Both the position numbers and the translations under genes were made by a program. The notes beneath the pieces were generated by a model. It had not been told where the DNA came from and made no database searches. It saw nothing but the letters and a program-made list of their open reading frames with translations. 64,000 nt of DNA, from assembly GCA_018417955.1 (NCBI GenBank), contig JACTVC010000018.1, positions 992,001 through 1,056,000 on the forward strand, written 5' to 3'. The first letter of the stretch is position 1. Each line of letters starts with the position of its first letter. Below, one piece after another: positions 3,525 through 62,770 of the stretch. This DNA comes from Laccaria trichodermophora. Its lineage: Eukaryota; Basidiomycota; Agaricomycetes; Agaricales; Hydnangiaceae.

Positions 3525-4071
3525 CACGGAAGGGGAGAAGGGGGAACCAAAGGACTAAAATAACAACGCCCGGCTTTTATAAGAGATCAGATCAACCCCA
3601 TCAGGTACGCGTTCGCGTTTGTCACGTGTCCCCCATATCTCTCAGCTTCGTTCATGTTCCGTCGCGCCTCGAGGCTTCAGAAACGTCAGCTGGGCTTTAC
3701 GCCACTGGGGCGGATTGAGCTGGTGCAGGTAGACTTTGGGAACGTGCTGCTTGCGAGTGAGCCTCGAGGACAATGCAAGGGCCGAATTGGCGACCCTTGT
3801 TTGAAGTTTCAATTTCGCGCCCTTGACGACACCATTTTCTCGAATCTCTTGTCATTTTGTCAATTTCTTGTCATTTTGTCAATTTCTTGTCCTACGCGTC
3901 TGTGTTGGGTAGGGGTGGAGTACAATGGGTGCTGGATATCAAACAATGCATAACGAGGTGCGTTGATAATCACGCCAGACTTTTATTGACGTTACCTCAC
4001 ATCCGTCTCGCCAGCTCAATATGATTCTCATTCACGTTCAAATAGGCTCCCGAACGTCCCATCTGTAACCA
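3525..4071. repeat. Spacer shared by the duplicated gene-array blocks (copy 1)
   Basis: The spacer between the proline-rich gene and array A. Segments of it recur in the same order at 12200-12246, 16943-17172, 17850-17962, 18975-19030 and 20740-20814. This copy is uninterrupted and serves as the empty-site reference for the insertions in copy 2. It includes a local duplication of a TTGTCATTTTGTCAATT phrase near 3850-3890. Confidence 0.75.
3574..3581 (-). promoter_or_regulatory. TATA-box-like element upstream of the proline-rich gene
   Basis: The minus strand reads CTTATAAAAGCC around 3572-3583, about 50-55 bp before ATG 3524. The same element is kept at 12221-12235 upstream of copy 2, in otherwise diverging flanks, which supports a core promoter role. 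Confidence 0.5.
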
Positions 4072-4165
4072 TCTCCGCTCGTACACCGGCAAGTACATGT
4101 CCACAAATATCTGCGACATTATGATATCGGACACACAGAAACTGGGTTCGACTCCCAGGCGGAGA
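4072..4165 (+). tRNA. tRNA-like unit A1, anticodon-loop insert
   Basis: Acceptor TCTCCGC pairs fully with GCGGAGA. The D stem is GTAC/GTAC and the anticodon stem TGTCC/GGACA, with about 26 nt between the stem halves. The T arm is CTGGG-TTCGACT-CCCAG. Its acceptor and anticodon stem differ from the main type by paired changes. Amino-acid identity is not assigned. Confidence 0.6.
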
Positions 4166-4323
4166 TGTAGTCACATTGTCTCTCTCTGTTTTTCTCTTCG
4201 TCAGTTACAGCAACTCATCGTCGGTTTAAATGTGCACACCAGTACCCCCAACCGATTGGCAATCACAAAACACCCACCCACCCACCTCCCATTTAGCTCC
4301 GCAAAAACCCTCTCACAACCAAC

Positions 4324-4422
4324 CCTCCGTTCGTATACCGGAAGTACGTGTGCCTGCTATTGCCCATAATTGAGAGCAGGACAGTACGTGCACAAAGACT
4401 GGGTTCGATTCCCAGATGGAGA
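4324..4422 (+). tRNA. tRNA-like unit A2, anticodon-loop insert
   Basis: Acceptor CCTCCGT/ATGGAGA (one G-U pair, and C-A at the first pair), anticodon stem TGTGC/GCACA, standard T arm. The loop between the anticodon stem halves is about 36 nt, which implies an intron of about 29 nt. Confidence 0.6.
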
Positions 4423-4561
4423 TGTAGGGTGGTCAGCGTATTCAACCCATTTTTGCATCTCGCGTCACAGCTCCCTCGATTCGTACCTGCAATTTGCAAT
4501 TACAAAACACGCACGCACGCACCTCCCATTCAAATTCCGCGTAAACCCTCCCACATCCAAC

Positions 4562-4656
4562 CCTCCGTTCGTATACCGGCGGTACGTGTGCTGCTATTTC
4601 CGGGCAGGTTCGTTGAATGGTACGCGCAAAGACTGGGTTCGATTCCCAGACAGAGG
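4562..4656 (+). tRNA. tRNA-like unit A3
   Basis: Anticodon stem TGTGC/GCGCA with one G-U pair, good T arm. The 3' acceptor strand ACAGAGG is weakened by mismatches. Confidence 0.5.
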
Positions 4657-4792
4657 TGTTAAAGCTCGAACCAATTTTTACATCGTGCATCTTGGACCGA
4701 GTCACAGCTCCTTTGATTTGTCTGCAATTGGCAATTACACAACAACCCACCCACCTCCCATTCAACTTTCGCGTGAACCTTCTACATCTAAC

Positions 4793-4888
4793 TCTCCGTT
4801 CGTATAACGGCAGTACGTGTGCCTACTATGCCCACGGAATCAGGGTTACTAGTACGCACAAAGACTGGGTTCGATTCCCAGACGGAGC
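4793..4888 (+). tRNA. tRNA-like unit A4
   Basis: Acceptor TCTCCGT/ACGGAGC, anticodon stem TGTGC/GCACA, perfect T arm. A T6 run follows about 20 bp downstream. Confidence 0.6.
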
Positions 4889-5050
4889 GGATGCGTCGTT
4901 GAAATGATTTTTTACATCGCGCCGTCGTTATCGCTTCTTTTCCTCGTTGTCACTGCTTGCTGGTGAACAGTGCGCTGTCATTTGGCAGTCACAAATCACG
5001 CACCCATCCACCTCCCATTCAACTTCCGCGTAAGCCCTTCTACATCCAAT

Positions 5051-5144
5051 CCTCCATTTGTATACTGGCAGTACGTGTGCCTACTATTTCCGCTGATAGC
5101 AGGGTACGCGCGCGCAAAGACTGGGTTCGATTCCCAGACGGAGA
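5051..5144 (+). tRNA. tRNA-like unit A5
   Basis: Acceptor CCTCCAT/ACGGAGA, anticodon stem TGTGC/GCGCA, perfect T arm. A T5 run lies about 25 bp downstream. Confidence 0.55.
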
Positions 5145-5290
5145 AGAGGCCATTGACATATTTGATACATTTTTACATCCCGCATCCAAGTCACAACCCC
5201 CTCGATTTGTATCTACAGTGGGCGATCAAAAAACACCCGCCTACCCACCCACCTCCCATTCAAGACCGCGTAAGCCCTTCTACATCCAAT

Positions 5291-5388
5291 CCTCCGTTCG
5301 TATACCGGCAGTACATGCGCCTACTATGTATTGCCTCCTCCATTAAGGCTGGTACGCGCGAAGACTGGGTTCGATTCCCAGACGGGGA
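5291..5388 (+). tRNA. tRNA-like unit A6
   Basis: Anticodon stem TGCGC/GCGCG: position 29 T to C is matched by A to G at 41, a compensated change relative to TGTGC/GCACA. The 3' acceptor strand is ACGGGGA. Its insert and 3' half are repeated at 59195-59256. Confidence 0.55.
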
Positions 5389-5529
5389 GATCGCAAGCTC
5401 TGACCATTTTTGCCTCGCGCGTCATAGCTCCCTCGATTGCTCGATTGTACCTGCTGCTTCTGGCAATCACAAAACACCCATCCACCTCCCACCTCCCATT
5501 CAAGTTCCGTGTAAGCCCTTACACAACGC

Positions 5530-5630
5530 CCTCCGTCCGTATACCGGCAGTAGGTGTGCTATTATTTCTACACGGGTTCGAGCAATATATGGTACGCGCA
5601 AAGACGGGGGGTTCGACTGCCCGGCGGAGA
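5530..5630 (+). tRNA. tRNA-like unit A7, altered T arm
   Basis: Anticodon stem TGTGC/GCGCA. The T stem is CGGG/CCCG with an extra G before the loop, and the acceptor 3' strand is GCGGAGA. It is partly degenerate and corresponds to C8. Confidence 0.45.
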
Positions 5631-5830
5631 CAAGACAGAGACTAGTGGTAACAGTTTTTTCATCTTTGTCTTGTCATTACTTACGCTTGCTTCTTCATAT
5701 TCACAACGTAGTCTGTTGCATCTGGAACGGGTGAATATGTCCCGTAAAATGCAAACATCCCATCGAAGGCATATCGATCATCACCTACAGAGGTATGATT
5801 CAAATCTTCGTTCAACTCCCCACATCTAAC

Positions 5831-5923
5831 CCTCCGTTCGTGTACCGGCAGTACGTGGCCTACTATATCGGTTCGGATTAGCATGCACAAAGACTGCCAG
5901 TGGGTTCGACTCCTAGACGGAGA
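5831..5923 (+). tRNA. tRNA-like unit A8, degenerate
   Basis: Normal acceptor CCTCCGT/ACGGAGA, but a 4-nt insertion before the T arm and a weakened T stem. It corresponds in position to C9. Confidence 0.4.
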
Positions 5924-6217
5924 ATGGTGCTCTCGATCTTCGAATTTTTTCTTTGTCACTTCTTTTCCTCGTCGTTTCTCGGTAACAACTAAACCCATCT
6001 ACTTACTCCTGTACGTTTACTTTCAAACATTTAGTACTAACTTTTGGGGGTATGTTGAACGAGTGAGTACGCTTCGCATATAAGAAACCTACCGGAGCTT
6101 ATAAACTCCCCTCACTATATCCTGCCCGAGCTAACTATCTTTCCAGGATCATCTCTAGACCCAACAATCTTCATTTACTCGACCTCACAAAAATCCTCCT
6201 ACATCCTGCCCTCTAGA

Positions 6218-6312
6218 TCTCCGTTCGTATACCGGCAGTATGCGTGCCATCATTAAGTGGTGGAGGAAGTGTCTAGTATACACAGAGACTGGGTTCGACT
6301 CCCAGACGGAGA
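6218..6312 (+). tRNA. tRNA-like unit A9
   Basis: Acceptor TCTCCGT/ACGGAGA pairs at all seven positions; perfect T arm with loop TTCGACT. A T7 run follows about 20 bp downstream. It corresponds to C10. Confidence 0.55.
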
Positions 6313-6589
6313 GTATAAGCCAGTGGTCAGTTTTTTTGCTATTGTGATTGGTATGTATATTTGCGTTTTAGAATTAATTGAAATGACAACAAAACTGACT
6401 TTCATGATCATCATGCAGACCTGAAAACCACCTATCCAACCCCAAAAAAATTCCTCCCACCTCAATCCCTCTACAAAATTTACGATTGTTCGCGCAAAAG
6501 CTCGGTTCGATTGCCAGACAGATAGTAAAATGATCCAAGTGGTTTTTTTTCTCCACCTTGATGAAAATATCAATTTTTTGGAAAGGCAC

Positions 6590-8873: not shown

Positions 8874-8964
8874 CTCTCTGTTGGTGTATTGAGTGTAAGT
8901 ACACACGCATTCAATCACAAAAGCATTGAAACGCGAGAGCCCGGTTCGATTCCGAAGCAGAGAG
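8874..8964 (+). tRNA. Divergent tRNA-like unit D2
   Basis: Acceptor CTCTCTG pairs fully with CAGAGAG. A B box GGTTCGATTCC is present and a loop insert separates the anticodon stem halves. The T stem is imperfect. This is an old relative of the array units, isolated from the arrays. Confidence 0.4.
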
Positions 8965-9087
8965 ATAATTGGTACGAAGTCCCGTGTTTTTATCGATAGA
9001 GGTTTTACATCAAACCCGTCCAAGGTAAGGCCATCACGTATTTCCCGAGCCAGGTTCAACACCTGCCATACACCTCAATATCCAACG

Positions 9088-9180
9088 TTTTTGTTGGCAT
9101 ATTGGTCGGTACGCGCACCTGTCATCTGGAATACTTGATGTTCTTTCGTGCGAAAGCTGGGTTCGATTCCCAGACAGGGG
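9088..9180 (+). pseudogene. Decayed tRNA-like unit D3
   Basis: The 3' half is good (CTGGG-TTCGATT-CCCAG), and GGTACGCGCACC marks the D and anticodon arm start, but the acceptor strands no longer pair. Confidence 0.35.
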
Positions 9181-9413
9181 CTATCCACGGAAAAAAAACA
9201 ATGGACATGATTTTTTTTGGTGCTTTCTAATTTCTCAAGCTATATTGTGAAGAAAAATCTGAGCGAATGGCCCTCGTCAGTTCTACAGTGATTCTAATGG
9301 AATGCGCCCTATCACACCTGGACTCGATGCAAACTACACACCTTAATAACCTCAGGAGACGCCAACGTTGACCTACGAATACAAAAGTTGTGAATCTTGG
9401 AAGACTTTTGAGT

Positions 9414-9509
9414 TCTTTGTCTGGGGATTGAGCCCAGTTTTCGCGCATGAGATGCGGATTCATAAACTTCCATGACAGGCGCGTGTATTGACCAATATAC
9501 GAACAATGA
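9414..9509 (-). pseudogene. Inverted tRNA-like unit
   Basis: Minus-strand unit with TTGTTCGTATATTGG at the D arm, CGCG-type anticodon stem remnants and a T arm CTGGG-CTCAATC-CCCAG followed by ACAAAGA. The acceptor pairs only partly. It is the clearest unit on the strand opposite to the arrays. Confidence 0.4.
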
Positions 9510-15200: not shown

Positions 15201-16942
15201 CGTTTCTTGCCCTCACTGCTCTTCAAGTTGTCAGCCTTTTGGGCTTCTGGTATCTGGAAGATCGGAGCGATAATGGGTTTTGCCTTGACTTTGCGCTTCT
15301 TTGCCTGAGGCTTCTTGGGTGAGACAGAAAGTCGTTTCAGTGCCTTTGACAAATCAAGGACCTTCGCATTGGGGGGTGGAGTGACTAATGGCCGTTGCCG
15401 CATTGCAGGTGGGGGTGGGAACGTCAAAGGGAGGGCGCGGTCAGTCGGTAAATTCTAATGGGGTGGCCATTGAATGGAGGCAAAGAATAGATAGAAAATG
15501 AAAGACTCACGATTGCGTTACACCGCTCGACGATTTTCCTCAATGTTGTCATTCGAGCCAGATCCCCGAAAACAGGAGAGGATGTGTTTTTGACCAATGG
15601 ATATTGTTTGAGGAAGTGATGAGCCAAGCCATTGAAGCTGTATATGCCACAGCTCCATGTATCAATGCTGAAGCTCTGCTCAGGGCATGGCAGAACTCCA
15701 TTGTCAAGCTGGTCAAGTGGGAGCGACGCAACGTGCTTGGAAAGGAACCATCGTAATGCAGAAACAATCCGAGAATTGATGGGCAGCTGGGCAGGATCCC
15801 CATATAACAAATCTTGCAGGGAGACGTCAATGGCAATTGCAACCCAGTGGTTGTCATTTATGTGGAAGATGCCAGCCAGTTCGCTATTTTCGGATAGCCC
15901 TGCGCCAAAACGGTGCAAAAAGGTGGTTCCTTTTGGATCGTAGATTTTCTCACCTGTCAGATCTGCATCATAGACTTCGAGAATCTTTCTTGATAATACA
16001 GTATCTACAAAATGAATGTTACGACTGGGGAGAGTCAATTTGACCTCTGCCTCGAGGAGATAAATCATCAAATCAACCTCCTCGTCTGAAAGCCATTCAC
16101 GCGAGAGAAAATTGAGAAGCGTCGACTTGGTGAACTGGGTTCTGTCTGTGGAAAGTGCTGGAAGGTTGCCTGACCAAAACACAGTGGCCAGGGACTCGCA
16201 GGTGGCACGGACTTGGTCCTGGAATAGATTCAGGTCATCCCTCTGGAGCCAGTGAAGCGCTCGCTCCCATGAAACACGGGCTGGGTAAACTATGAGGTGG
16301 AGGTCGCTCCAGAAATGGAGACACCAAAGGGGCAAGTTTTGGGAAACGCCAGGAAGGGTGAGAGAATCTGCGCCATCAAGCCAGCACTGCTTCGTTTGGT
16401 CAAGAAGTTTGGCAACAAGGCCTTTGGGCGGGACAATAACCTGTTTAAGAATTTTGATGTCATTGATCGGCTGCAATGGGCTAAAAAAAGAAAATGCTGA
16501 GGGGATAGTGGAATAGGCGTCCTGGCCAGAGGAAATTGGTGGCAGCTCCATGTTGACCAAATCAAGAACAGACATCCGGGGACTAGGGAGAAGGATTTCC
16601 GCATGAATTGTGGGTACTTTCAATTGCTCACGGACGTGGCCCTTGACATGCACAGGAAGGTCATTGAACTGGTGATCCTGTTGTCGCCACGAGGAAGCAT
16701 CAGGGTTGTCCATTTACGTTTTCGGTACAAGCATCAAATTGTAGGTCTGTCCCAATGATCAGGTCTGCGAAAACAAGGTTTAAAAACTGTGCAGGACCCG
16801 CGAAATTCTGTACTTGCACCAGGAATTATTTACATATTTTACATGCCCTATATCTGGCTTGGTAAAAAATTAGTAAGTTACTGTAAATTACATATGTAAA
16901 TTACATTTTGTAAAAATACCCCCACTTTTACACGCAACCCTA
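12247..16942 (-). mobile_element. hAT-type DNA transposon with Ulp1-transposase gene, apparently complete
   Basis: The ends read TAGCGTTGCGTATAAAA (left) and, on the opposite strand, TAGGGTTGCGTGTAAAA (right), imperfect terminal inverted repeats. The flanks carry an 8-bp target duplication AATCAACC (12239-12246 and 16943-16950). The uninterrupted spacer at about 3590-3600 has the sequence once. Length is 4696 bp. The element contains one spliced gene on the minus strand with hAT transposase domains, in agreement with the 8-bp duplication typical of hAT elements. Confidence 0.88.
12374..16713 (-). CDS. Ulp1/C48-type protease fused to BED-finger hAT transposase
   Basis: Nine exons join in frame: 16713-15511, 15454-15200, 15149-14286, 14224-14045, 13990-13775, 13718-13409, 13357-13011, 12954-12787 and 12700-12374, giving about 1289 residues. 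Exon 1 is a Ulp1-like cysteine protease: His289 (NDNHWVAIAID), Asp306 (LYGDP) and Cys355 (DTWSCGIYSFN), with Gln346 or nearby for the oxyanion hole. Exon 2 is a basic linker (KKRKVKAK). Exon 3 has a BED-like finger (CAGAGC...HAKRC) and a DUF659-like domain with SISFDGGAL. Exons 4-8 carry SSDNTGNTRVA and the hAT dimerisation region (PLQWWMAF, PHSMADERTMS, RNRQKVGVV). The tail is acidic. The transposase part should cut and rejoin the element ends. The protease part may act on SUMO or a similar conjugate; that is inference. No stop or frameshift was found. Confidence 0.8.
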
Positions 16943-20814: not shown

Positions 20815-20904
20815 TCTCCGCTCGTACATCGGTAAGTACATGTGCACAAGTCTCCAATCATTATCTCAGACACACAGAAACTGGGTTCGACTCCCAGGCG
20901 GAGA
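20815..20904 (+). tRNA. tRNA-like unit B1
   Basis: Acceptor TCTCCGC/GCGGAGA fully paired, as in A1. Anticodon stem at least TGTG/CACA; T arm CTGGG-TTCGACT-CCCAG. Confidence 0.55.
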
Positions 20905-21051
20905 TTTACAGCAGTGACTCTCTTTGTTTTTCTCGTCGTCAATTACAGCAACTCATCGTCGTTTCAGTTATGCGTACCAACTAATAGGTAAGCACAAAAC
21001 ACCTCCCCTTCAACCCCCGCATAAACCCACCCACATCTAACCCTCCGTTCG

Positions 21052-21140
21052 TATACCGGCAGTACGTGTGCCCGCTATCGCCGACAGCTGATAGTGGCAG
21101 AGTACGCGCACAAAGACTGGGTTCGACCCCTAGACGGAGA
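21052..21140 (+). tRNA. tRNA-like unit B2
   Basis: Acceptor CCTCCGT/ACGGAGA, anticodon stem TGTGC/GCACA. The T stem is slightly damaged on its 3' side (CCTAG). Confidence 0.5.
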
Positions 21141-21277
21141 GGATGCAAAGGGCATAATAAAACCATTTTACATCGCGCATCCCAGCTCCCTCGATTCGTA
21201 CCTGCAATTGACGATCACAAAACACCCGCCTACCCACTGCATCCCATTCAAGAATGCGTAAACCTTACACATCCAAC

Positions 21278-21369
21278 CCTCCGTTCGTATACCGGCAGTA
21301 CATGTGCTACTATTGCAGACGTTCGTTAAATGGTACGCGCAAAGACTGGGTTCGATTCCCAGATGGAGA
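21278..21369 (+). tRNA. tRNA-like unit B3
   Basis: Acceptor CCTCCGT/ATGGAGA, anticodon stem TGTGC/GCGCA, perfect T arm. The insert (TACTATTGCAGACGTTCGTT) is nearly the same as in C3. Confidence 0.55.
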
Positions 21370-21497
21370 CATTGGAGAGGATTGCATACTAATGCGGCCA
21401 ATTTTTACATCGCGCGTCATAGCTCCTTCGATTTGTCTGCAATTGGCAATTACACCCACCTCCCATTCAACTTCCGCGTAAACCTTCTACATCTAAC

Positions 21498-21586
21498 TTT
21501 CCGTTCGTATACCGGCAGTACCTGTGCTGCTATTGTAGATGGTCCAAGTACACGCACAAAGACTGGGTTCGATTCCCAGACGGAGA
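21498..21586 (+). tRNA. tRNA-like unit B4
   Basis: Anticodon stem TGTGC/GCACA with 26 nt between the halves, perfect T arm, 3' strand ACGGAGA. A T5 run lies about 25 bp downstream. Confidence 0.55.
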
Positions 21587-21719
21587 TGTTGAGACGTTGA
21601 ATCAATATTTTTACAATCGTGGGTCACAACTCTCTCGCTTCGTACCTGCAATTGACGATCACAAAACACCTGCCTACCCACCTCCCATTCAACTCGGCAT
21701 AAACCCTCCCATATCCAAC

Positions 21720-21808
21720 TCTCCATTCGTATACCGGCAGTACGTGTGCTTCTATTAAAGATGGTTCAAGTACACGCACAAAGACTGGGTTCGATTACCA
21801 GACGGAGA
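21720..21808 (+). tRNA. tRNA-like unit B5
   Basis: A near copy of B4, with acceptor TCTCCAT/ACGGAGA and a single change in the T stem (CGATTACCAG). A T5 run lies about 25 bp downstream. Confidence 0.5.
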
Positions 21809-21944
21809 TGTTGAGACGTTGAATCAATATTTTTACAATCGTGCGTCACAGCTCCCTCGCTTCGTACCTGCAATTGACGATCACAAAAAACCCGCCTACC
21901 ACCCACCTCCCATTCAGGACTGCGTAAACCCTTACACAAACAAC

Positions 21945-21977
21945 CCTCCGTTCGTATACCGGCAGTACGTGTGCCTA
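21945..21977 (+). pseudogene. 5' half of a tRNA-like unit (B6)
   Basis: CCTCCGTTCG and the D arm are intact, but the unit ends at GTGTGCCTAC in the anticodon loop, where unrelated repeated sequence begins. Confidence 0.55.
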
Positions 21978-22099
21978 CATCGGGAAATTGGGGTTCAACA
22001 GGCAAGTGACTACTAAACCTTACAAAAGCTTTCAAAATGTAAAATGTCAAAAAAATTTAAAAGCCTTGCAGATCCCTTTTTCAACCAATGTAAATGGTG
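21978..22099. other. Array B end junction
   Basis: The first 34 bp (GGGAAATTGGGGTTCAACAG and flanks) match 39825-39858. The remainder is AT-rich without a gene. Confidence 0.4.
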
Positions 22100-22770
22100 G
22101 TGAAGTTGTGACTTTTCCCCATGTACAAAATAAAAATTTTCCATTGCAAAACATATGCTGAGTTTTGACAACGATGAAAAAAAAAAGATCGGGTGAGATG
22201 GGCAGACCCAGAAAAATGATTGGTTCTTAGACAAGCCTCCAAGAAGTCGCCAAGAGACCTGCAGCATCAAACAAGAAATGTAGTGATGTACTTTGTGAGT
22301 TTCATAAGCACCACACAGACTTTTTGATAGGACCAGGAATTGAATTTAGACATTGCAAGTCACATGTAAAATTGTGGTGTCACTGCGACTTTCCACCATG
22401 TATGAAATAATTTTTTCTGTTGCCAAACATGCACTGAGTTTTGACAATGATGAAAAGAAAAAGATTGCATGAGATGGTCAGACCCAGAAGAACAATTGGT
22501 TCTTAGACAAGCCTCCAGGAAGTCGCTAAGAGACCTGCAGCATCATGGTGATGTACGTTGTGAGTTTCACAAGCACCACACAGACTTTTTGATAGGACCA
22601 GAAATTGAATTTAGACATTGCAAGTCACATGTAAAATTGTGTTGTCGCTGTGACTTTTCACCATGTACAAAATAATTTTTTCTGTTGCAAAACATGTGCT
22701 GAGTTTTGACAACGATAAAAAGAAAAAGATCGCGTGAGACGGTCAGAAGAACGATTGGGTCTTAGACAAG
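22100..22770 (+). repeat. Tandem repeat, ~265-280 bp unit, about 2.5 copies
   Basis: The phrase CCATGTACAAAATAA recurs near 22119, 22397 and 22661. Each is followed by TGAGTTTTGACAACGATG, then GGTTCTTAGACAAGCCTCC, and in the first two units by AGAGACCTGCAGCATC and CACACAGACTTTTTGATAGG. Point differences are few. No coding frame persists through the units. Confidence 0.75.
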
Positions 22771-27054: not shown

Positions 27055-27815
27055 TTAGTACCATTGTCCGTTATCAATTTCTGACTCACCACGATCTGAC
27101 ATCGTATCGTCGGGTCCTAAAGGTATGTGTAGAGAATTTTCAAATGCTAACTTCTTTGTCAAAGCACCCTGGGAGGTATCATCTATATAAACGTAGATTG
27201 TCTGCAGGAGATGTCTGTTGACAACCAGCAGGTGTTCTTTCACGGTGTACAGAGGTGGGAACTGGGCGTCGCGATGAGGGATGAACTGCAAACGTCCTGC
27301 AATTTCGCCGTCCTTGACTACGAATTCACCTGGAGGCATAGTCATGCAATGTGGGCGGTTGGGTGGTTAACGTAGACGCATTCTTCAATTGCGGGGTGTC
27401 TCAGACACCTTTCCTTTTTAGGTTTTTGTATGGGTACGATCGTAAAACTTGCAAAAATACTACGTCATATGGTTTGACGTGACTTTGACTGGGGTCCAAA
27501 GTAAAGGAGAAGGGAATCGACGGAGTTGTGTCAAATGCACATTCTATATACCTGAGTGCTAGATTGTAAACAAACTCCAAACGATTGGGACTCGGATAAC
27601 CCGCGCCTGTTGACAATGACGTGTCTGAACGGAGGATCAATGCTATCGTGCCGAGAAACATCGGTGACAAGAGAGGTGAGGGGATCATCAACCAACGCAA
27701 GGTCCAGTGAATCGGTTGAAATGAGAACAATCAACCAGGTCAGGTCAATTGCGACAGAAAATCTGCCGGCAGCCTTCTTCAGCTTGTCTTGCAACATAGT
27801 TACAGCGAAGTTCAA
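27055..27815 (-). pseudogene. Arm-encoded protein of unknown function, left copy, frame-broken
   Basis: Minus-strand pieces: LNFAVTMLQDKLKKAAGRFS and VAIDLTWLIVLISTDSLDLA, a frame change, then SPNRLEFVYNLALRYIECAF, HVKPYDVVFLQVLRSYPY, and after a gap MTMPPGEFVVKDGEIAGRLQ to SDRGESEIDNGQWY. The last block is kept almost unchanged in the right arm, which suggests it was coding when the arms were copied. No known domain was recognised. Confidence 0.45.
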
Positions 27816-28059
27816 GAGTTGATGAGCCTAGGGCAAGCGCGTTGTTGTGAATTCACAGAACTTCAAAGAAGGTCCTCCAGCGCACCTGTGCTATCCTTTC
27901 CGATATAACGAAATGTGTTGTGAAGCCGAGTGTAAATGTTCAATGGATTGTTGGGTAGCCCAGTTTTTCAGACTTTTTTCTCTGATTTAGTCAGTCAAAG
28001 ATTTGACTATATTTTGCGAACCGACTCACCGTGTTGTAAAAAATGTGCCGGAGGTAAGG

Positions 28060-28162
28060 CGACGCATAGTCGAACCTCCCAGATTGACCGACGCGAAGTC
28101 TAAGTCAAGAGATGAACGACCGACGCGAAGTCCAAGTCGTGAGGTAAATGACGCAAAGTCTA
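28060..28162 (-). repeat. GACTTCGCGTC motif cluster 1
   Basis: Four imperfect copies of GACGCGAAGTC (GACTTCGCGTC on the minus strand) at about 30-35 bp spacing, with variants GACGCATAGTC and GACGCAAAGTC. The same cluster layout recurs in the other arms. Confidence 0.7.
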
Positions 28163-28556
28163 CTCCGCCGTAGGATAAGATCGACTCATCCGGGCCTGTT
28201 TTGCACTTCAAATGCGTCACTCACGCAACAACCAGGTCAGGTCAATTGCGACAGAAAATCTGCCGGCAGCGTCCTTCAGGGTGTGTTGCAACATAATTAC
28301 AGCGAAGTTCAAGAGTTGATGAGCCTAGGGCAAGCGCGTTGTTGTGAATTTACAGAACTCCAAAGAAGGTCCTCCAGCGCACCTGTGTTTTCCTTTCCGA
28401 TATGACGAAATGTGTTGTGAAGCCGAGCGTGAATTTTCAAAGGATTTGGTGGGTAGCCCAGTTTTTCTCTGATCTGAATCCAGTAGCTAGTCAAAGATTT
28501 GACCATATTTTGCGAACCGACTCACCGCGTTGTAAAAAATGTGCCGGAGGTAAGGC

Positions 28557-28660
28557 GACGCATAGTCGAACCTCCCAGATTGACCGACGCGAAGTCTAAG
28601 TCAAGAACTTTGAACGACCGACGCGAAGTCCAAGTCGTGAGGCAAACGACGCGAAGTCCA
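28557..28660 (-). repeat. GACTTCGCGTC motif cluster 2
   Basis: Second cluster, in the duplicated part of the left arm, again four copies at about 30-38 bp spacing in the same orientation as cluster 1. Confidence 0.7.
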
Positions 28661-29293
28661 TTTCGCCGTAGAATAAGATCAACTCACCCAGGCCCATTTG
28701 CACTTCACATACGTTACTCACGCAATCCGCGATTCTCTCCGGAATCCTTCCGAGTCGTTAGTTGGTAGAATGACATTCGGGGATCGTTTCCTGATGAATT
28801 CTGCACGTTGGACTCGGAACTGCTGCCAGTGGTCGGGGACGTAACAGGCCTGGTGTCCATCAACGACGACAAGGCGATGTGCGGACAGACAGCAGAAATT
28901 GCATGGGTGTCGTGGAGGATCGGAGTATCTCGGACTGGAGTCAAAACACTGTCACGTGACTACCTCATAAAATCTATAAATAGGGACATTGAACGAGTTC
29001 GATGACTCCTCGGTATTGCGCAATAAAATTAGTAGTAGAAGCTTTGTCCCGGTATAATTAAAGGGTTTTGTTCTTGATGAAGTCGATGTAGGTTCTGGTT
29101 TTGAAGGCAATTGAGTCCGAGTCCAGTACAGTGAATTTCGTATCACGCATTTATTGTCCGACTTATAGATTATGCATTCTGACTTGGATATCCTAGTACT
29201 CCTTCGATGACTTGTTATGACTTGGTCTTCATCTACCAAGTCGCCCGTATCGGCCATGCCACTGTGGAACAAAAATGACTATGTGCATATACT

Positions 29294-45641: not shown

Positions 45642-48600
45642 ATGGATGCAGAAGATCCACTCTATCCTGATATAACGGCCTTCAGTCAAACTTGTGGGGG
45701 TTGCGGCCGATCTTTTGCGCAACTCAATGCCTTCACCAACCATTCATCTAGCTGTGGGAGAAAGAAGAGGCTATTTTCTTCTACCCTCGCATCAGCGCAG
45801 GAAGCATACAGAAAACAAAAGCAGCGCCGCCTTGAAGAACGCCAGAAGCTGCCATTCGCACCTGATGTTCAAGACAAACAGTCGCAGGTAATTGCTTCGT
45901 CACAAAATTCGCTCTTGGATGATGTCTAACGGTTCCTACCTCTACTTTTCGTTGATAGGACCTGAATACGCCGCCTGTCAGCATTCCAGCAATACTTACG
46001 AACCAGGATTCGATGGACGTCGAGCCTATCCCCGATGATTCTCGCTCTCTTGCCGAACGCAGAGTTCGCCGCAATATTTGTTTACCTGTGCGCTTTCGCG
46101 ATGAGCAACCTCAAGCGCAAGCTGCGCTTCCACCTCCAGAAATGGTACTTCCAGAAGTTGTTCATTCTGAGCCTGTGGAACCTATAAGTAGTACCACAAT
46201 GAAAATCCGAAAACTCCTTACATCTCCCCGCAATGTATTTGGACTGTTCCGGCAGTACAGGGCAGAAGGATTCCCCACACACGACCCCGAGGTGGAGCAG
46301 CAGCACGCCGCTCTCTCCGAAGTTGCATCCGATCATAAAGAAATACCGGTGGGAGGTGCTATCTTCGGCCCCTATCCAAACAAATCCGCATTTCTTCTTG
46401 GCGAATGGTACTGGAACGACGGGATGCAGAAAACAAAGGCAGGTTTTAAACGGCTAATCGATATCATTTGCAGGCGGGATTTTAGGCCAGAAGATATCCA
46501 AGGTGTTCCATGGGATGCTTTGAACGAGCAGCTGGGGGGATCAGAGACAGCTGGCGATGTGGAGGACACGTGGTACGATGAACCTGATGCTGGCTGGACC
46601 GCAACACCGATCTCTTTACCCATCCCAATCCACCGCCTAACAAAGAGCCCAGGTGTTCAAGAATATCATTTCCCCCCATTCCATCATCGCAGCATCATAT
46701 CAATTCTTAAGGAGAAGATGAACAACACTGATGAGTTCCAACATTTCCATCTTGAACCCTATGAACTGCGGTGGCAAAAGGGGGACGCTGCTTCGGTTAG
46801 GGTTCAAGGAGAACTTTATACTTCTCCAGCATTCCTGGAGGCACACGAAGAAATACAGGCTTTACCCAGAGCACCCGGATGCACCCTCCAGCGGGTTGTT
46901 GTCGGTCTCATGTATTCGTCGGACACCACCCACCTCACGTCATTCGGCTCTGCATATCTCTGGGCGCTTTATGTATATTTTGGGAACGAATCGAAGTATA
47001 GAAGATGCAAACCCAGCTGTAATCTCTGCCACCATGTTGCTTATTTCCAGAAGGTAAGGCACATTTGTTTTGGTGGTAAGGCCATGGCAATTGACTGGGC
47101 TGAAGTTGCCACCCGAATTCAAAGATTTCGCTGGGCAACATTTTGGTATGAAAGGAGCAAGCAAGCCATTCATGGCGCATTGCCAGCGCGAGTTTCTGCA
47201 TGCACAGTGGAAAATCTTGCTAGATGACGAGTTCATGGATGCATATGAGAATGGTATTGTCATCATGTGCTGCGATGGGATTGCCCGACGTTTCTACCTT
47301 AGGATATTCTCCTATGCTGCCGATTACCCCGAGAAGTGTGTACATTGCTGCTTTTGATGACTTGTTGCGAGGCTGATCATATAGGGTTCTACTAACGACC
47401 ATTCGTAACATGGGTGGTCGCCCATGTCCTCGCTGCCTTATTCCTAAGGGTCTTATTCATCAAATAGGTACTGAATGCGACAAAGTGCAGCGAAAACTTT
47501 CTGTGCGCACCAACGACAAGGTATACCAAGAAAAAATACGCGAAGCCCAAGCGCTGATCTACGAAAACAATTGGGCGGTTGAGAGCGCTCCAGTGCAGCG
47601 CATTCTCAAGCCGCATTCACTCGTACCAACTCTAGTAAGTCTGTGGCACAGCGAACCAACTTTGTATCTAAGCTAAGGCTTGCCACAGAATGCATTTTCA
47701 CGCTTCTCGCACTTGCTCTTCAATTTCTTTGAAATATTTCACATCGATTTTATGCATGAGGTCGAGTTAGGAGTTTGGCGGGCCCTTTTTCTCCATCTTC
47801 TTCGGATCTTGGATACTATTGCTGGAGCAACTGATATTCTCGATTTTCGGTCAGTACACTCCTCCATTTCAAGTTAGGCCATCTGAAGAGATGTGATAGC
47901 TTCCGCGCGACGCCGACATTTGGCCGCGATTCTATTCGTCGTTTTTCAAGCAATATTTCTGAATTGAAGAAGCTTGGTGCAAGGGACTACGAAAACCTCC
48001 TACAAGTAAGCCACCGGATGAACCGGAAACATTTCGAAATATTCACATAGTGTTTGTAGTGCTCCATCCCAGTTTTTGATGGTCTTCTTCCAGAGCCACA
48101 CAATTCCCTCCTTTTGGACCTTCTGTTCATTTTCGCACATTGGCATGGTCTTGCTAAACTCCGCCAGCACACAGACCTTACCTTGGGAATTTTAGAATCC
48201 ACCACTTCTGCACTCGGGCAAGCTCTCCGCGATTTCCAAGAAAAGCTGTGTCCGGCCTTTGATACCAAAGAACTAAAGCGGGAAGCTGCAGCAAGGCAGC
48301 GTCAACAAGCCAAGAAGGCTTCAGCGCCTGTGAACAAATCTGCACTGGCTGGAGCGGCAACCAGTAATGACACCGATATAAACACTGCGACCGTAGAACC
48401 ACATACAACGCAGGGTGCCCTCTCTTTGACTGATAGCGCGGATGGCAGCACGACCGGTCGAAAAGCAACACAGGCAAAACTACCCCTCGGGAGGCGCAAG
48501 AAAACCCTCAATCTGAACACATACAAAGCGCATGCGCTCGGAGACTATGTTGAAACGATTCGGAGATACGGAACGACAGATTCTTATTCGACTGAGCCAG

Positions 48601-59194: not shown

Positions 59195-59256
59195 ATGTAT
59201 TGCCTCTTCCATTAAGGCTGGTATGTGCGAAGACTGGGTTCGATTCCCCGGAGAAT
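59195..59256 (+). pseudogene. 3' half of a tRNA-like unit (C0)
   Basis: Begins in the anticodon loop (TACTATGTATTGCCTC) and continues through the B box GGGTTCGATTCCCC. It is nearly the same as the 3' half of A6, but the acceptor strand is damaged. Confidence 0.55.
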
Positions 59257-59411: not shown

Positions 59412-59510
59412 CCTCCGTTCGTATACTGGCAGTATGTGTGCCTGCTTTGCAGATATGTTGGCAAACGGAAATTACACGCACAAAGACTGGGTTCGATTCC
59501 CAGACAAAGA
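59412..59510 (+). tRNA. tRNA-like unit C1
   Basis: Anticodon stem TGTGC/GCACA and T arm intact; 3' acceptor strand ACAAAGA is mismatched at two positions. A T5 run lies about 25 bp downstream. Confidence 0.5.
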
Positions 59511-59574
59511 GGATGGTGTGCGAACTCGACCAGTTTTTACAACGCACGTCACAGCTCCCTCGATTTGTCTGCAA

Positions 59575-60529
59575 CATCAGCAAGTTAACAGTTTACTTTC
59601 TGGCTTTTAGCTGCTTTTTAGCTTGCGACCAGCTGAAAAGTGTAAAAGCTGGAAAGCTAATCTACCGAAAATATGACATCCTAGCAGATCTCGAGAAACA
59701 CTCAGATTACAAGAAAAATAAAAAACTAATCTACCTCAAACCCCCTCCACCCCTATCTTGCCTTCAGATTCTCAGCAACAAACGGCATGAGCTGTCAAGT
59801 AATTGAGTGGGACACACTATGAGAGGGAAGGAGCACTCTGTACCGGCAGTCCATGGATGGAACAGGTCATGCTACAGTGTTGAGGAGTGGTGTCTTCTTT
59901 GGCCGCAAACAGCGTCTGAGGATAGCTGCTGTGTTGCAGAAATTGGCAAAGTGGGGGTGATGGGAAGAAGGGAGAGACGACGTGGCGACTGATGGCAACA
60001 CCACGTGAGTTGAATATTTGATCAATACAGCCAAACACGTCCACGTCACATCCTATCTTCAACTCTCATCTACCAGCCTTCCCCTCTACCCCGCTCGGTC
60101 TACTGCATGTACTATGCAGGTGCGCTGTGCTGCTGCATCTACTGAAATCATAGTGTGCAGTTACATTGTGTTTTGGACCCTTGTTGACGATGGATTGCAG
60201 CAGTCTGGTGTGGCAATCTGGTGTGTTCTTGAATATTCTTCTTATAAATTTCCCTCTGACAGATTCTTGATGCATCTCTCTGAGCTAGGTAGATTTCCGC
60301 AATGTTGGGTAGACTACATAGTCAAGTAAATTTGCACTTTAGTTGCTAGTTTTACCTCGATTGCTCTTTTTTTTGACTTTTTTCTGCTTTTTCAACTTTT
60401 TTGTTTGCTGGCCAATAGCCGCTTTTTGCAAAATTTGGCCTGGCTTTTTAACTTGCGGCTTTTCCGCCTTTTCCGCCTTGTAGCCACTTGTACAAGTCAA
60501 AAAAAGTAAAGTGTGAAAGTCCCGATGAA
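59575..60529. mobile_element. 955 bp insertion inside a tRNA-like unit leader
   Basis: The leader phrase GATTTGTCTGCAA|TTGGCGATCAC is split here. The ends are loosely inverted (CATCAGCAAGTTAACAG against CATCGGGACTTTCACAC), with a possible 2-bp AA at both sides. No transposase frame. The interior has GCTTTTTAGCTGC and CGGCTTTTCCGCC runs near the two ends. Class unknown. Confidence 0.4.
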
Positions 60530-60598
60530 TTGGCGATCACAAAACCCGCCTACCACCCACCTCTCATTCAAGACTGCGTAAACCCTTACACAAACAAC

Positions 60599-60696
60599 CC
60601 TCCGTTCGTATACTGGCAGTACGTGTGCCTACTATGCATGACCGATAGAAATAGCAAGTACGCGCACAAAGACTGGGTTCGATTCCCAGACGGAGA
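60599..60696 (+). tRNA. tRNA-like unit C2
   Basis: Acceptor CCTCCGT/ACGGAGA, anticodon stem TGTGC/GCACA, perfect T arm; T5 run about 25 bp downstream. Confidence 0.6.
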
Positions 60697-60833
60697 AGAG
60701 ACGGTCAACATTATCAACCCATTTTTACATCTCGCATCACAGCTCCCTCGCTTCGTACCTGCAATTGACGATCACAAAACCCGCCTACCCACTGCACCCC
60801 ATTCAAGACCGCGTAACCCCTGACACATCCAAC

Positions 60834-60925
60834 CCTCCGTTCGTATACCGGCAGTACATGTGCTACTATTGCAGACGTTCGTTGAATGGTTCGCGCAAAG
60901 ACTGGGTTCGATTCCCAGATGGAGA
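60834..60925 (+). tRNA. tRNA-like unit C3
   Basis: Near copy of B3 (same insert), acceptor CCTCCGT/ATGGAGA, perfect T arm; T5 run downstream. Confidence 0.55.
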
Positions 60926-61040
60926 GGATTGCGCACCAATGGGGCCAATTTTTACATCGCGCGTTATAGCTCCTTCGATTTTTACCTGCGATTGGCACCC
61001 ACCTCCCACTCAAGCTTCGCGTAAACCTTCTACATCTAAC

Positions 61041-61132
61041 TCTCCGTTCGTATACCGGCAGTACATGTGCTACTATTTCAAGACGTTCGTTGAGCGATAC
61101 GCGCAAAGACTGGGTTCGATTCCCAAACGTTG
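61041..61132 (+). tRNA. tRNA-like unit C4, damaged 3' end
   Basis: D arm and B box intact, anticodon stem TGTGC/GCGCA. After CGATTCCC the acceptor strand reads AAACGTTGA and no longer pairs with TCTCCGT. Confidence 0.4.
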
Positions 61133-61265
61133 ACTGAGCTTGACCAATCAATATTTTTACAATCGTGCGTCACAGCTCCCTTGCTTCGTACCTGCAATTG
61201 ACGATCACAAAAAACCCGGCCACCCACCTCCCATTCAGGTTCCGCGTGAACCTTCTACATCTAAC

Positions 61266-61363
61266 TCTCCCTTCGTATACCGGCAGTACGTGTGCTGCTA
61301 TTGTAAATGGTTCGTAAATGGAAAGTACACGCACAAAGACTGGGTTCGATTCCCAGACGGAGA
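61266..61363 (+). tRNA. tRNA-like unit C5
   Basis: Acceptor TCTCCCT/ACGGAGA (one mismatch), anticodon stem TGTGC/GCACA, perfect T arm. Confidence 0.55.
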
Positions 61364-61492
61364 TGTTGAAACGTTGAAGCTTGACCAATCAATATTTTCG
61401 TCACAGCTCCCTCGATCATTTGTCTGCAATTGGCAATTATTACACCCACCCACCTCCCATTCAAGTTCCGCATAACCCCTTACACATCCAAC

Positions 61493-61587
61493 TCTCCGTT
61501 CGTATAACGGCAGTACATGTGCTGCTATTTCCAGGAAGGCTCATTAAATGGTACGCGCAAAGACTGGGTTCGATTCCCAGACGAAGA
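61493..61587 (+). tRNA. tRNA-like unit C6
   Basis: Acceptor TCTCCGT/ACGAAGA, anticodon stem TGTGC/GCGCA, perfect T arm; T5 run about 25 bp downstream. Confidence 0.55.
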
Positions 61588-61744
61588 GGATGGTGTACCA
61601 ACTCGACCAGTTTTTACAACGCGCGTCACAGTTCCCTCGTATTTGTACCTGCAATTGACGATCACAAAAAACCCACCTACTATACCCATCCATGATCCAC
61701 CTTCCATTCAACGCCTCATCCTCATAAACCCTCCTACATCCAAC

Positions 61745-61846
61745 CCTCCGTTCGTATACCGGCAGTACATGTGCCTACTGTTTACAAATGTGTAAGCACG
61801 TCAGAGGAAGTACGCACAAAGACTGGGTTCGATTCGCAGACGGAGA
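61745..61846 (+). tRNA. tRNA-like unit C7
   Basis: Acceptor CCTCCGT/ACGGAGA, anticodon stem TGTGC/GCACA; one change in the T stem (CGATTCGCAG). T5 run about 25 bp downstream. Confidence 0.5.
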
Positions 61847-61993
61847 GGAAGCGATTGACATATTCAAGACATTTTTACATCGCGCGTCCCAGCTCCTTCG
61901 ATTGTACTTCCAGCTCCCCAACCTGCGTGCGTGCGTGATTTGTGATTGCCAATACCTCCCATTCAAGTTTCATGTAAGCCTTCCCATATCCAA

Positions 61994-62099
61994 CACTCCA
62001 TTCGTTTGGCATTCGTATACCGGCAGTACGTGTGTCTACTATTATTGGTCATGGCACCGATGGTCTGCTCAAAGACGGGGTTCGACTCTCCGATGGAGA
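61994..62099 (+). tRNA. tRNA-like unit C8, altered arms
   Basis: A short CATTCGT duplication disrupts the 5' acceptor. The T arm is CGGGG-TTCGACT-CTCCG, a paired T-A to G-C replacement relative to CTGGG/CCCAG. Corresponds to A7. Confidence 0.4.
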
Positions 62100-62269
62100 G
62101 TAAGTGATAACTGGTTTTTCCTCATGCTTCTTCATACTCACAAGATAGTTTGTTGCATCTGGAATGGGTGAATATGTCCCGTAAAATACAAACATCCCAC
62201 CAAAGCTCATTGATTATCACCTAGTACATAGGTATGATCCAATCCTTTGCTCAACTCCCCACATCTAAC

Positions 62270-62369
62270 CCTCCGTTCGTATATTGGCAGTACGTGTGCC
62301 TACTAGTATATCAGGTGTCGGAAATCCTTCTCACATGCAGAAAGATCGGGTTCGACTCCCAGACGGAGA
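62270..62369 (+). tRNA. tRNA-like unit C9
   Basis: Acceptor CCTCCGT/ACGGAGA; T stem TCGGG/CCCAG with one mismatch. Corresponds to A8. Confidence 0.45.
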
Positions 62370-62514
62370 ATACATTAGTTTCCACTTCTTTTCCTTGTCG
62401 TGTCTCAGTAACAACGTGAACCCATCTACTTACTCCTGTACGTTTACTTTTGAAAATTCCACAGGTAACCTCACAAAAATCCTCCTACATCCTGCCCTTG
62501 TCCTGCCCTCTAGA

Positions 62515-62612
62515 TCTCCGTTCGTATACCGGCAGTACGCGTGCTATCATCACTGGTGGAGGAAGTGACTACTTAGTATGCACAGAGACTGGGTTCGACT
62601 CCCAGACGGAGA
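62515..62612 (+). tRNA. tRNA-like unit C10
   Basis: Acceptor TCTCCGT/ACGGAGA fully paired, T arm CTGGG-TTCGACT-CCCAG, T8 run about 20 bp downstream. Corresponds to A9. Confidence 0.55.
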
Positions 62613-62770
62613 GTATGATCATCAAGGGTCAATTTTTTTTTGATTGGTGTGTATATTTGATTTTTGACTTAGACCTGAAAACTACCTATCCAACCCCAAA
62701 AAAATTCCTCCCACCTACAAAAATTATGATTGGTCGTGCAAAAGCTCGGTTCGATTGTCAGACGGATAGT

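Follow-up and report, generated by a model that had tools for sequence, protein, structure and literature searches.

Three tandem arrays of units resembling transfer RNA (tRNA) genes, here called A, B and C, lie in a 64,000-nucleotide stretch of the Laccaria trichodermophora genome (the window; contig C10, positions 992001-1056000, in an assembly of 59 Mb and 77 contigs). We think it likely that these arrays are paralogues of a nuclear tRNA-Asp(GTC) gene with an intron, multiplied by tandem and block duplication, and that their units have ceased to decode. The descent of the units, their gene structure and signals, the loss of Asp identity elements and the duplication of arrays as blocks are demonstrated here, while transcription of the units is something we infer. 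Judged by their sequence, the window units are probably tRNA-like paralogues that are competent for transcription by RNA polymerase III (Pol III) and are in decay. The preliminary description of this stretch left their identity open between real tRNAs, a tandemly fixed tRNA-derived short interspersed nuclear element (SINE) and small RNAs with Pol III promoters; the choice now narrows to tRNA-Asp(GTC) descent, with decoding unlikely and a SINE disfavoured.

In the scenario that we favour, an intron-bearing tRNA-Asp(GTC) gene would have been duplicated in tandem, and the resulting arrays would then, or meanwhile, have been copied as blocks. Each unit would have kept its internal promoter of A and B boxes and its oligo-T terminator, giving a predicted tRNA-like RNA of roughly 115-130 nt. 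Most of the acceptor, D and T arms survives in it, whereas what was the anticodon loop carries an insert of ~30 nt that has diverged between units and shows no consistent anticodon. No working tRNA would be made from the window units, and the family would mostly drift, with constraint strongest on the promoter boxes.

Descent from tRNA-Asp(GTC)

An Infernal search (cmsearch) with a covariance model built partly from the window units (R1), a check suggested in the preliminary description, gave 36 matches in the window at E ≤ 10, of which 27 score above 40 bits: nine in array A, three near 9 kb, five in array B and ten in array C. The 24 array units, all on the + strand, agree with the number given in the preliminary description. 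As had been described, they have the acceptor, D arm, anticodon stem, variable region and T arm of a tRNA, and an insert separates the halves of the anticodon stem at the site of nuclear tRNA introns. Since R1 was built partly from window units, its scores are not independent; independent support comes from a T-arm plus acceptor motif, which has 120 genome matches within 3 mismatches compared with 0 for the reversed pattern. Among the 100 of these matches listed, clusters lie on contigs C10, C1, C15, C16, C21, C67 and C76, with singles elsewhere. R1 itself gives 132 matches at E ≤ 0.01 in 221 kb (the window and the loci fetched), which is not a genome total because the loci were picked around motif matches; counts for the genome rest on motif patterns.

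The dispersed relatives of the arrays have the form TCTCTGT TAGTATATCGGTTAGTAC A CGCGC CTGTCA - insert - C GCGCG AAAG CTGGGTTCGACTCCCAG ACAGAGA G. With tRNA positions numbered by us, this is by its sequence a class I tRNA with anticodon GTC, U33, G73, a 7-bp acceptor and an insert at the usual intron site. Of the 132 R1 matches, 33 still read YTGTCA where the anticodon lies, and G73 accompanies it in 23 of these 33 compared with 41 of the 99 others (Fisher P 0.008, relatedness ignored). The exact D arm GTTAGTATATCGGTTAGTAC is linked to GTC still more tightly: all 11 R1 matches that bear it have both YTGTCA and a discriminator G, and each of its 13 exact places genome-wide is paired with a YTGTCA match. 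Note that conservation of TGTCA in our 23-unit core set carries no weight, as the set was selected by TGTCA. The insert position fits an intron between positions 37 and 38, with putative splicing; when the A-I pair of tRNA introns was looked for among intron-end positions -2 to -7, none was seen to pair with base 32 in more than 65% of the 23 core units. In the excerpted text of PMC10886601, tRNA-Asp is among the fungal Helenus primer tRNAs whose genes carry an intron downstream of the anticodon.

Exons are identical, but introns differ, in six GTC units spread over four contigs (three on C1 and one each on C15, C20 and C21). Between 13 loci, the inserts of 30 GTC units have a median identity of 0.53, compared with 0.45 when shuffled, and their flanks 0.48 upstream and 0.485 downstream, each compared with 0.473. 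Identical exons with unlike inserts and flanks are as expected of a working tRNA gene set. The Rfam tRNA cut-off is reached by three family units (49.0, 45.6 and 40.9 bits), the other family units of the 13 sources scoring below it. No other candidate for a nuclear tRNA-Asp was found in two pattern searches, one for intron-bearing and one for intronless genes, neither of which would detect a gene whose intron is longer or whose B box is imperfect. In the former, YTGTCA followed by a B box at 18-48 nt has 52 genome matches compared with 5 for the reversed control; by eye, 37 belong to this family and 15 lie elsewhere. The intronless pattern has 3 matches, none an evident tRNA-Asp and one a tRNA-Gly according to ARAGORN. 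The tRNA-Asp matches of a general tRNA search, which scored 63 of 2749 candidates, adjoin tRNA-Glu(ttc) on C52, C67 and C70, and we take them as putatively mitochondrial. On C52, tRNA matches recur at a distance of ~93.1 kb (e.g. 24135 and 117243), as if a circular, probably organellar, genome had been assembled more than once round.

In a tree of the exons, which has 64 columns and leaves 72 of 109 inner branches open, units of the type found in the window arrays (window-type units) form one 31-row set among GTC-bearing relatives, with a support of 95 (SH-aLRT, the Shimodaira-Hasegawa-like approximate likelihood-ratio test). On this sequence evidence the window units descend from nuclear tRNA-Asp(GTC). 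They are also a local group by sequence: with up to 3 mismatches allowed, the D-arm motif of the window type occurs 27 times, always on the + strand of C10 at 996-1058 kb. This span takes in array E, the fourth of its kind, which lies immediately beyond the right end of the window (C10:1056-1058 kb, in the neighbouring locus L044). Arrays A, B, C and E align with one another over 1-2 kb at 66-80% identity, and the blastn alignment of A and E (3618-5552 against 1208-3149 of L044; 72% over 2054 columns) includes a unit-free leader of ~450 bp. In the tree, the first units of three arrays (4072, 20815 and L044:1624) group together with support of 96, and the last units 6218 and 62515 with support of 89. 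As read from these alignments, whole arrays have been copied as blocks, after or alongside unit-by-unit duplication.

Pol III signals, probable loss of decoding and constraint

All 24 array units have a B box with 0 or 1 mismatch and an A-box-like D arm. The downstream oligo-T runs noted for most units at first inspection are more general than that, since at least four T occur within 40 nt in 24 of 24. Across the family, a run of at least five T is found in the 40 nt downstream of 96 of 132 matches compared with 6 of 132 upstream. By sequence, then, array units carry the A box, B box and T-run terminator of a Pol III type 2 gene.

Identity elements of tRNA-Asp are lost in the window type. In the window and neighbouring L044, YTGTCA is kept in 4 of 43 R1 matches, all of which lie outside arrays A, B, C and E; one of them, the unit at 9088-9181, retains the GTC loop (CTGTCA). 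Window-type loops read CTACTAT or CTGCTAT, or one base shorter TACTATT or TGCTATT, with further variants. Because loop length varies by one base among units, the anticodon frame is not fixed. The discriminator is G in 10, T in 7, A in 4 and C in 3 of the 24 array matches (G11 T8 A6 C3 for the 28 window-type matches including array E). With GTC lost, G73 not conserved and loop length variable, window-type units are unlikely to decode: array units lack the combination of GTC, U33 and G73 expected of a tRNA-Asp(GTC) gene. The cloverleaf stems are kept over the family. In intron mode, ARAGORN calls ten different anticodons for 13 array units, none of them GTC, and Asp(gtc) for 17 of the 132 family matches. 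The exons group with Asp-type units while the anticodon calls are scattered, the misfit of anticodon and isotype that is typical of tRNA pseudogenes and tRNA-derived repeats, with isotype judged here by exon grouping in the tree.

General tRNA tools fare poorly on these units. Low scores under general models had been named at the outset as evidence against tRNA-like genes, and low scores are what we found: the Rfam search of the window has no match at the gathering score, and no RF00005 match is listed in the window even at E ≤ 10. The Rfam scan has a tRNA-Sec match at 9115-9181 (23.2 bits), and ARAGORN reports three tRNAs in the window with contradictory identities. Minimum-energy folding of six window units predicts a full cloverleaf in 3 of 6 only (4793, 60599 and 62515), with fold z from -0.84 to -3.19. 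A lack of covariation, likewise named as counting against the units, was not found. Over 56 aligned family units, stem positions pair in 94.8% of cases compared with 90.9% in shuffles (acceptor 93.9%, anticodon stem 91.6%, T stem 97.1%), double changes occur in 11 of 21 stem pairs, and 0 of 500 shuffles are as high on any of five measures. Sliding the structure along the alignment gives pairing of at most 61.4%. The family-wide covariation may be partly inherited from functional tRNA-Asp ancestors of the subfamilies.

Sequence divergence suggests where constraint acts. Among 78 near pairs of 20 units it is 0.06 in the A box/D arm, 0.08 in the T arm, 0.10 in the anticodon stem and 0.13 in the acceptor, compared with 0.17 in the spacers, 0.21 in the insert and 0.23 in the trailer (gaps left out throughout). 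The other 112 pairs give 0.11, 0.11, 0.17 and 0.15 for the same four parts, and 0.26-0.29, 0.26 and 0.29 for spacers, insert and trailer. Constraint is clearest on the promoter boxes, as divergence is lowest in the A box/D arm and the T arm. We do not claim hypermutation of insert and trailer, as transcription-linked mutation might cause. Identities including gaps, in 15 close pairs picked by spacer similarity, are 0.75 for the insert and 0.64 for the trailer compared with 0.79 for upstream and 0.86 for downstream spacers; without gaps, the excess narrows in the near pairs and vanishes in the others.

Several observations weigh against simple decay of a tRNA-Asp gene. G73 persists in 41 of the 99 units without GTC, and the escape routes from our two pattern searches leave room for a different nuclear tRNA-Asp. 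Window-type acceptor positions pair in 129 of 138 cases compared with 120.4 in shuffles (0 of 2000 reach it), the T stem in 108 of 115 compared with 104.8 (23 of 2000), and changed stem cells keep their pair in 18 of 30, five by double change. Such kept pairing would fit a selected RNA. There is no excess in the window-type anticodon stem (107 of 115 compared with 106.0 shuffled; 474 of 2000) or D stem (88 of 92 compared with 88.0), and all such counts are inflated by shared ancestry.

Alternative readings of the arrays

These pairing data are at the heart of the best-surviving alternative, a functional non-coding RNA family that would retain the tRNA scaffold because it is stable and allows Pol III transcription, and would put what was the anticodon arm, now often an extended hairpin, to a new use. 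The family-wide pairing and double changes argue for it, as does predicted folding: the mean fold z of the insert is -0.64 in window-type units (n = 27), compared with +0.20 in GTC units (n = 25; P 0.001) and -0.32 in other units (n = 27). Bases at the start of the loop pair with those at its end in 21 of 27 window-type, 15 of 25 GTC and 18 of 27 other units; by these models, such pairing would bury the former anticodon, and the difference between classes is small. Upstream of the units, the -40 bin has an identity of 0.88-0.92 in the three closer pair classes and of 0.65 in the most distant. However, much of the covariation may come from functional tRNA-Asp ancestors of each subfamily, the excess within the window type is confined to acceptor and T stem, insert and trailer diverge freely, and several units are broken or weak (5530, 5831, 62006 and 21945). 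On balance, we regard such a function as doubtful. A bolder version would see the units as a Pol III RNA family that is specific to its lineage, has captured the tRNA-Asp scaffold and is transcribed from the arrays, with the former intron as a diversified extended hairpin arm under selection for folding and with other tRNA-like clusters as possible parallels; to this we give a rather low probability.

It is improbable that the arrays stem from a tRNA-derived SINE, or from a Helenus-type terminal-repeat retrotransposon in miniature (TRIM) with a tRNA-like sequence inside its long terminal repeats (LTRs), fixed in tandem. According to the excerpts of PMC10886601, Agaricus and Coprinopsis are among the fungi that have Helenus, and the animal Helenus LTR-11_DR is reported to form tandem arrays. 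However, the 30 GTC units at 13 loci have no common sequence beyond the tRNA part, with flank identity at shuffle level, and the arrays were duplicated as blocks together with their leader. The lack of common flanks among dispersed GTC copies argues against retroposition of a longer element; Helenus was judged by this shared-flank comparison only, and no search for paired LTRs, primer-binding sites or 5-bp duplications was made.

We hold it very improbable that the units are working tRNAs with altered decoding, for example with ACT or GCT serine-type or CTA suppressor anticodons. Splicing at the usual site would give ACT or GCT in many units, and ARAGORN calls one unit tRNA-Pyl(cta); against this, one-base differences in loop length shift the anticodon frame, the discriminator is not conserved, and a serine tRNA requires a long variable arm (PMC8450103, in part). 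Finally, cassette-like guide RNAs with a constant scaffold and a variable insert of ~30 nt that pairs with a target or the trailer deserve almost no credence: the arms are constant, insert and trailer variable, and two insert-trailer complementarities are striking (11 bases, and 13 bases by eye in locus L039, in a unit that has no D arm and lies outside the 87 units scored), but over those 87 units insert-trailer self-pairing is at chance (mean -7.17 compared with -7.20 kcal/mol; 5000 permutations, z 0.1), and no target search was made. Insert-trailer pairing as a family feature was rejected on this lack of excess, despite the single impressive case among the units scored.

The arrays in the window, the genome and other organisms

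The features of the window that belong to the family are collected in Table 1. The unit of ~95 bp first described is right for the gene-like part and not for the period, which has a median of 239 bp and a range of 207-489 (spacings below 500 on the + strand). An insert is present as described; its length, given as 19-30 nt, becomes 26-39 nt for loop plus insert in the 22 array units parsed. Of the array ends first set at 6525 and 62770, the stretches 6480-6525 and 62700-62770 hold a B-box half only.

Table 1. Family units and associated features of the window, with position, strand and basis
Feature	Position	Strand	Basis
Leader duplicated along with array A, matching array E right of the window	3618..4071	+	blastn
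Array A, nine tRNA-Asp-derived units: 4072, 4324, 4562, 4793, 5051, 5291, 5530, 5831, 6218	4072..6313	+	R1, 42-84 bits each
Degenerate last unit of array A, reduced to its B-box half	6420..6525	+	sequence; B box with 1 mismatch at 6504
Additional pair of family units, 8875-8964 and 9088-9181	8875..9181	+	R1, 45 and 70 bits
Family unit with GTC loop and discriminator A	9413..9509	-	R1, 78.6 bits
Array B, five units: 20815, 21042, 21278, 21498, 21720	20815..21809	+	R1, 69-79 bits
Truncated sixth unit of array B, 5' half matching and 3' half lost	21945..22044	+	R1, 17.3 bits; sequence
Left end of array C, where the 3' part of a unit remains	59205..59255	+	R1, 17 bits
Array C, ten units: 59412, 60599, 60834, 61041, 61266, 61493, 61745, 62006, 62270, 62515	59412..62613	+	R1, 49-85 bits
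Degenerate last unit of array C with a B-box half, corresponding to 6420-6525	62700..62770	+	sequence; B box with 2 mismatches at 62748

Within array C, ~1.1 kb without units (59512-60598) interrupts the ~239-bp spacing between the first two whole units. A 265-bp tandem repeat of 2.4 copies (22107-22747) lies shortly 3' of the truncated last unit of array B, and a 497-bp unit occurs twice in tandem, with 89% matches, at 27732-28725. Transposon remains are situated between the arrays: the open reading frames at 46013-47227 and 15424-16713 match a Plavaka transposase (PF18759) and an Ulp1-type C48 peptidase (PF02902). The Plavaka domain is in keeping with an Agaricomycete, and a protein search with the C48 frame yielded 14 matches, either unnamed or labelled hypothetical.

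Elsewhere in the genome, the exact motif GGGTTCRANTCCC occurs 564 times compared with 8 for the reversed pattern, and GGTTCRANTCC 966 times compared with 284. There are several hundred B boxes; among the matches listed, dense clusters lie on C1 (862-871 kb, 2005-2012 kb, 3470-3472 kb and 4854-4860 kb) and on C7 (254-277 kb). One such place holds another tandem tRNA-like group with T-runs, at ~280 bp spacing on the minus strand (L072, C1:3471101-3471850); one copy reaches the Rfam tRNA cut-off (37.4 bits), and its loop looks by eye like that of an Ala(TGC) gene with an insert. Tandem groups of tRNA-like units, again with B boxes and T-runs, occur at two further loci (L071, C1:862501-863600; L062, C10:833901-835100); by eye they are unlike the Asp-derived family in sequence, and ARAGORN detects no tRNA in either. 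Four tandem GTC units on C16 (L055, 443001-450000) resemble one another in their exons and have A or T in place of G as the discriminator; they may represent an early stage of this decay. Prokaryote genomes and viral contigs, scanned for exact occurrences of the motif, gave 0 matches, as expected for a fungal family.

The kind of locus is already known; this case stands apart in its origin from tRNA-Asp, in its diverged inserts and in having several subfamilies. Serpula lacrymans is, like Laccaria, an Agaricomycete. The comparisons that follow draw on excerpts of the papers cited. Among the closest known systems are the tRNA-derived repeats of this multicellular fungus, described by the authors of tRNAscan-SE 2.0: tRNA-like genes whose anticodon conflicts with the isotype that they resemble and which were judged to be repetitive elements rather than tRNAs (PMC8450103). 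The Serpula copies score as tRNA-Thr with a UGA anticodon and are identical, with mostly identical 50-bp flanks (PMC8450103), whereas the window units are tRNA-Asp-derived and diverged, have different inserts and have flanks in common only inside array groups. The SYY cluster of tRNA-Ser and tRNA-Tyr genes in Arabidopsis is similar in its tandem genes, intron variants, growth by tandem duplication and some pseudogenes; it differs in that it decodes serine and tyrosine, with tRNA reported in root tips (PMC12308677), and the window type is without a consistent anticodon. Helenus TRIMs likewise bring a tRNA-like Pol III promoter into fungal repeats, often with discordant anticodon and isotype, and have features of their own: LTRs, a primer-binding site, a polypurine tract and, in fungi, 5-bp duplications (PMC10886601). 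Unlike these, the dispersed copies described here have no common flanks. Large clusters of tRNA loci with fast turnover are, according to excerpts of a further paper, known from animals, plants and algae; fungi, Coprinus and Laccaria are mentioned nowhere in the main text of that paper. Searching the literature by title and the start of the abstract, with subscription papers mostly outside its reach, we found no fungal tRNA-Asp-derived arrays among the matches listed.

With these arrays, an odd feature overlooked by the general tRNA model now has an answer as to its identity. They show a tRNA gene losing its decoding role yet keeping its promoter motifs, its terminator and most of its fold, and they imply that tRNA counts in such fungi can mislead. 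Because apparent parents and derived subfamilies share one genome, Laccaria is a good test bed for whether Pol III-competent arrays are by-products or a new source of small RNAs. As far as their sequence indicates, the window units are most likely drifting by-products of tRNA gene duplication.

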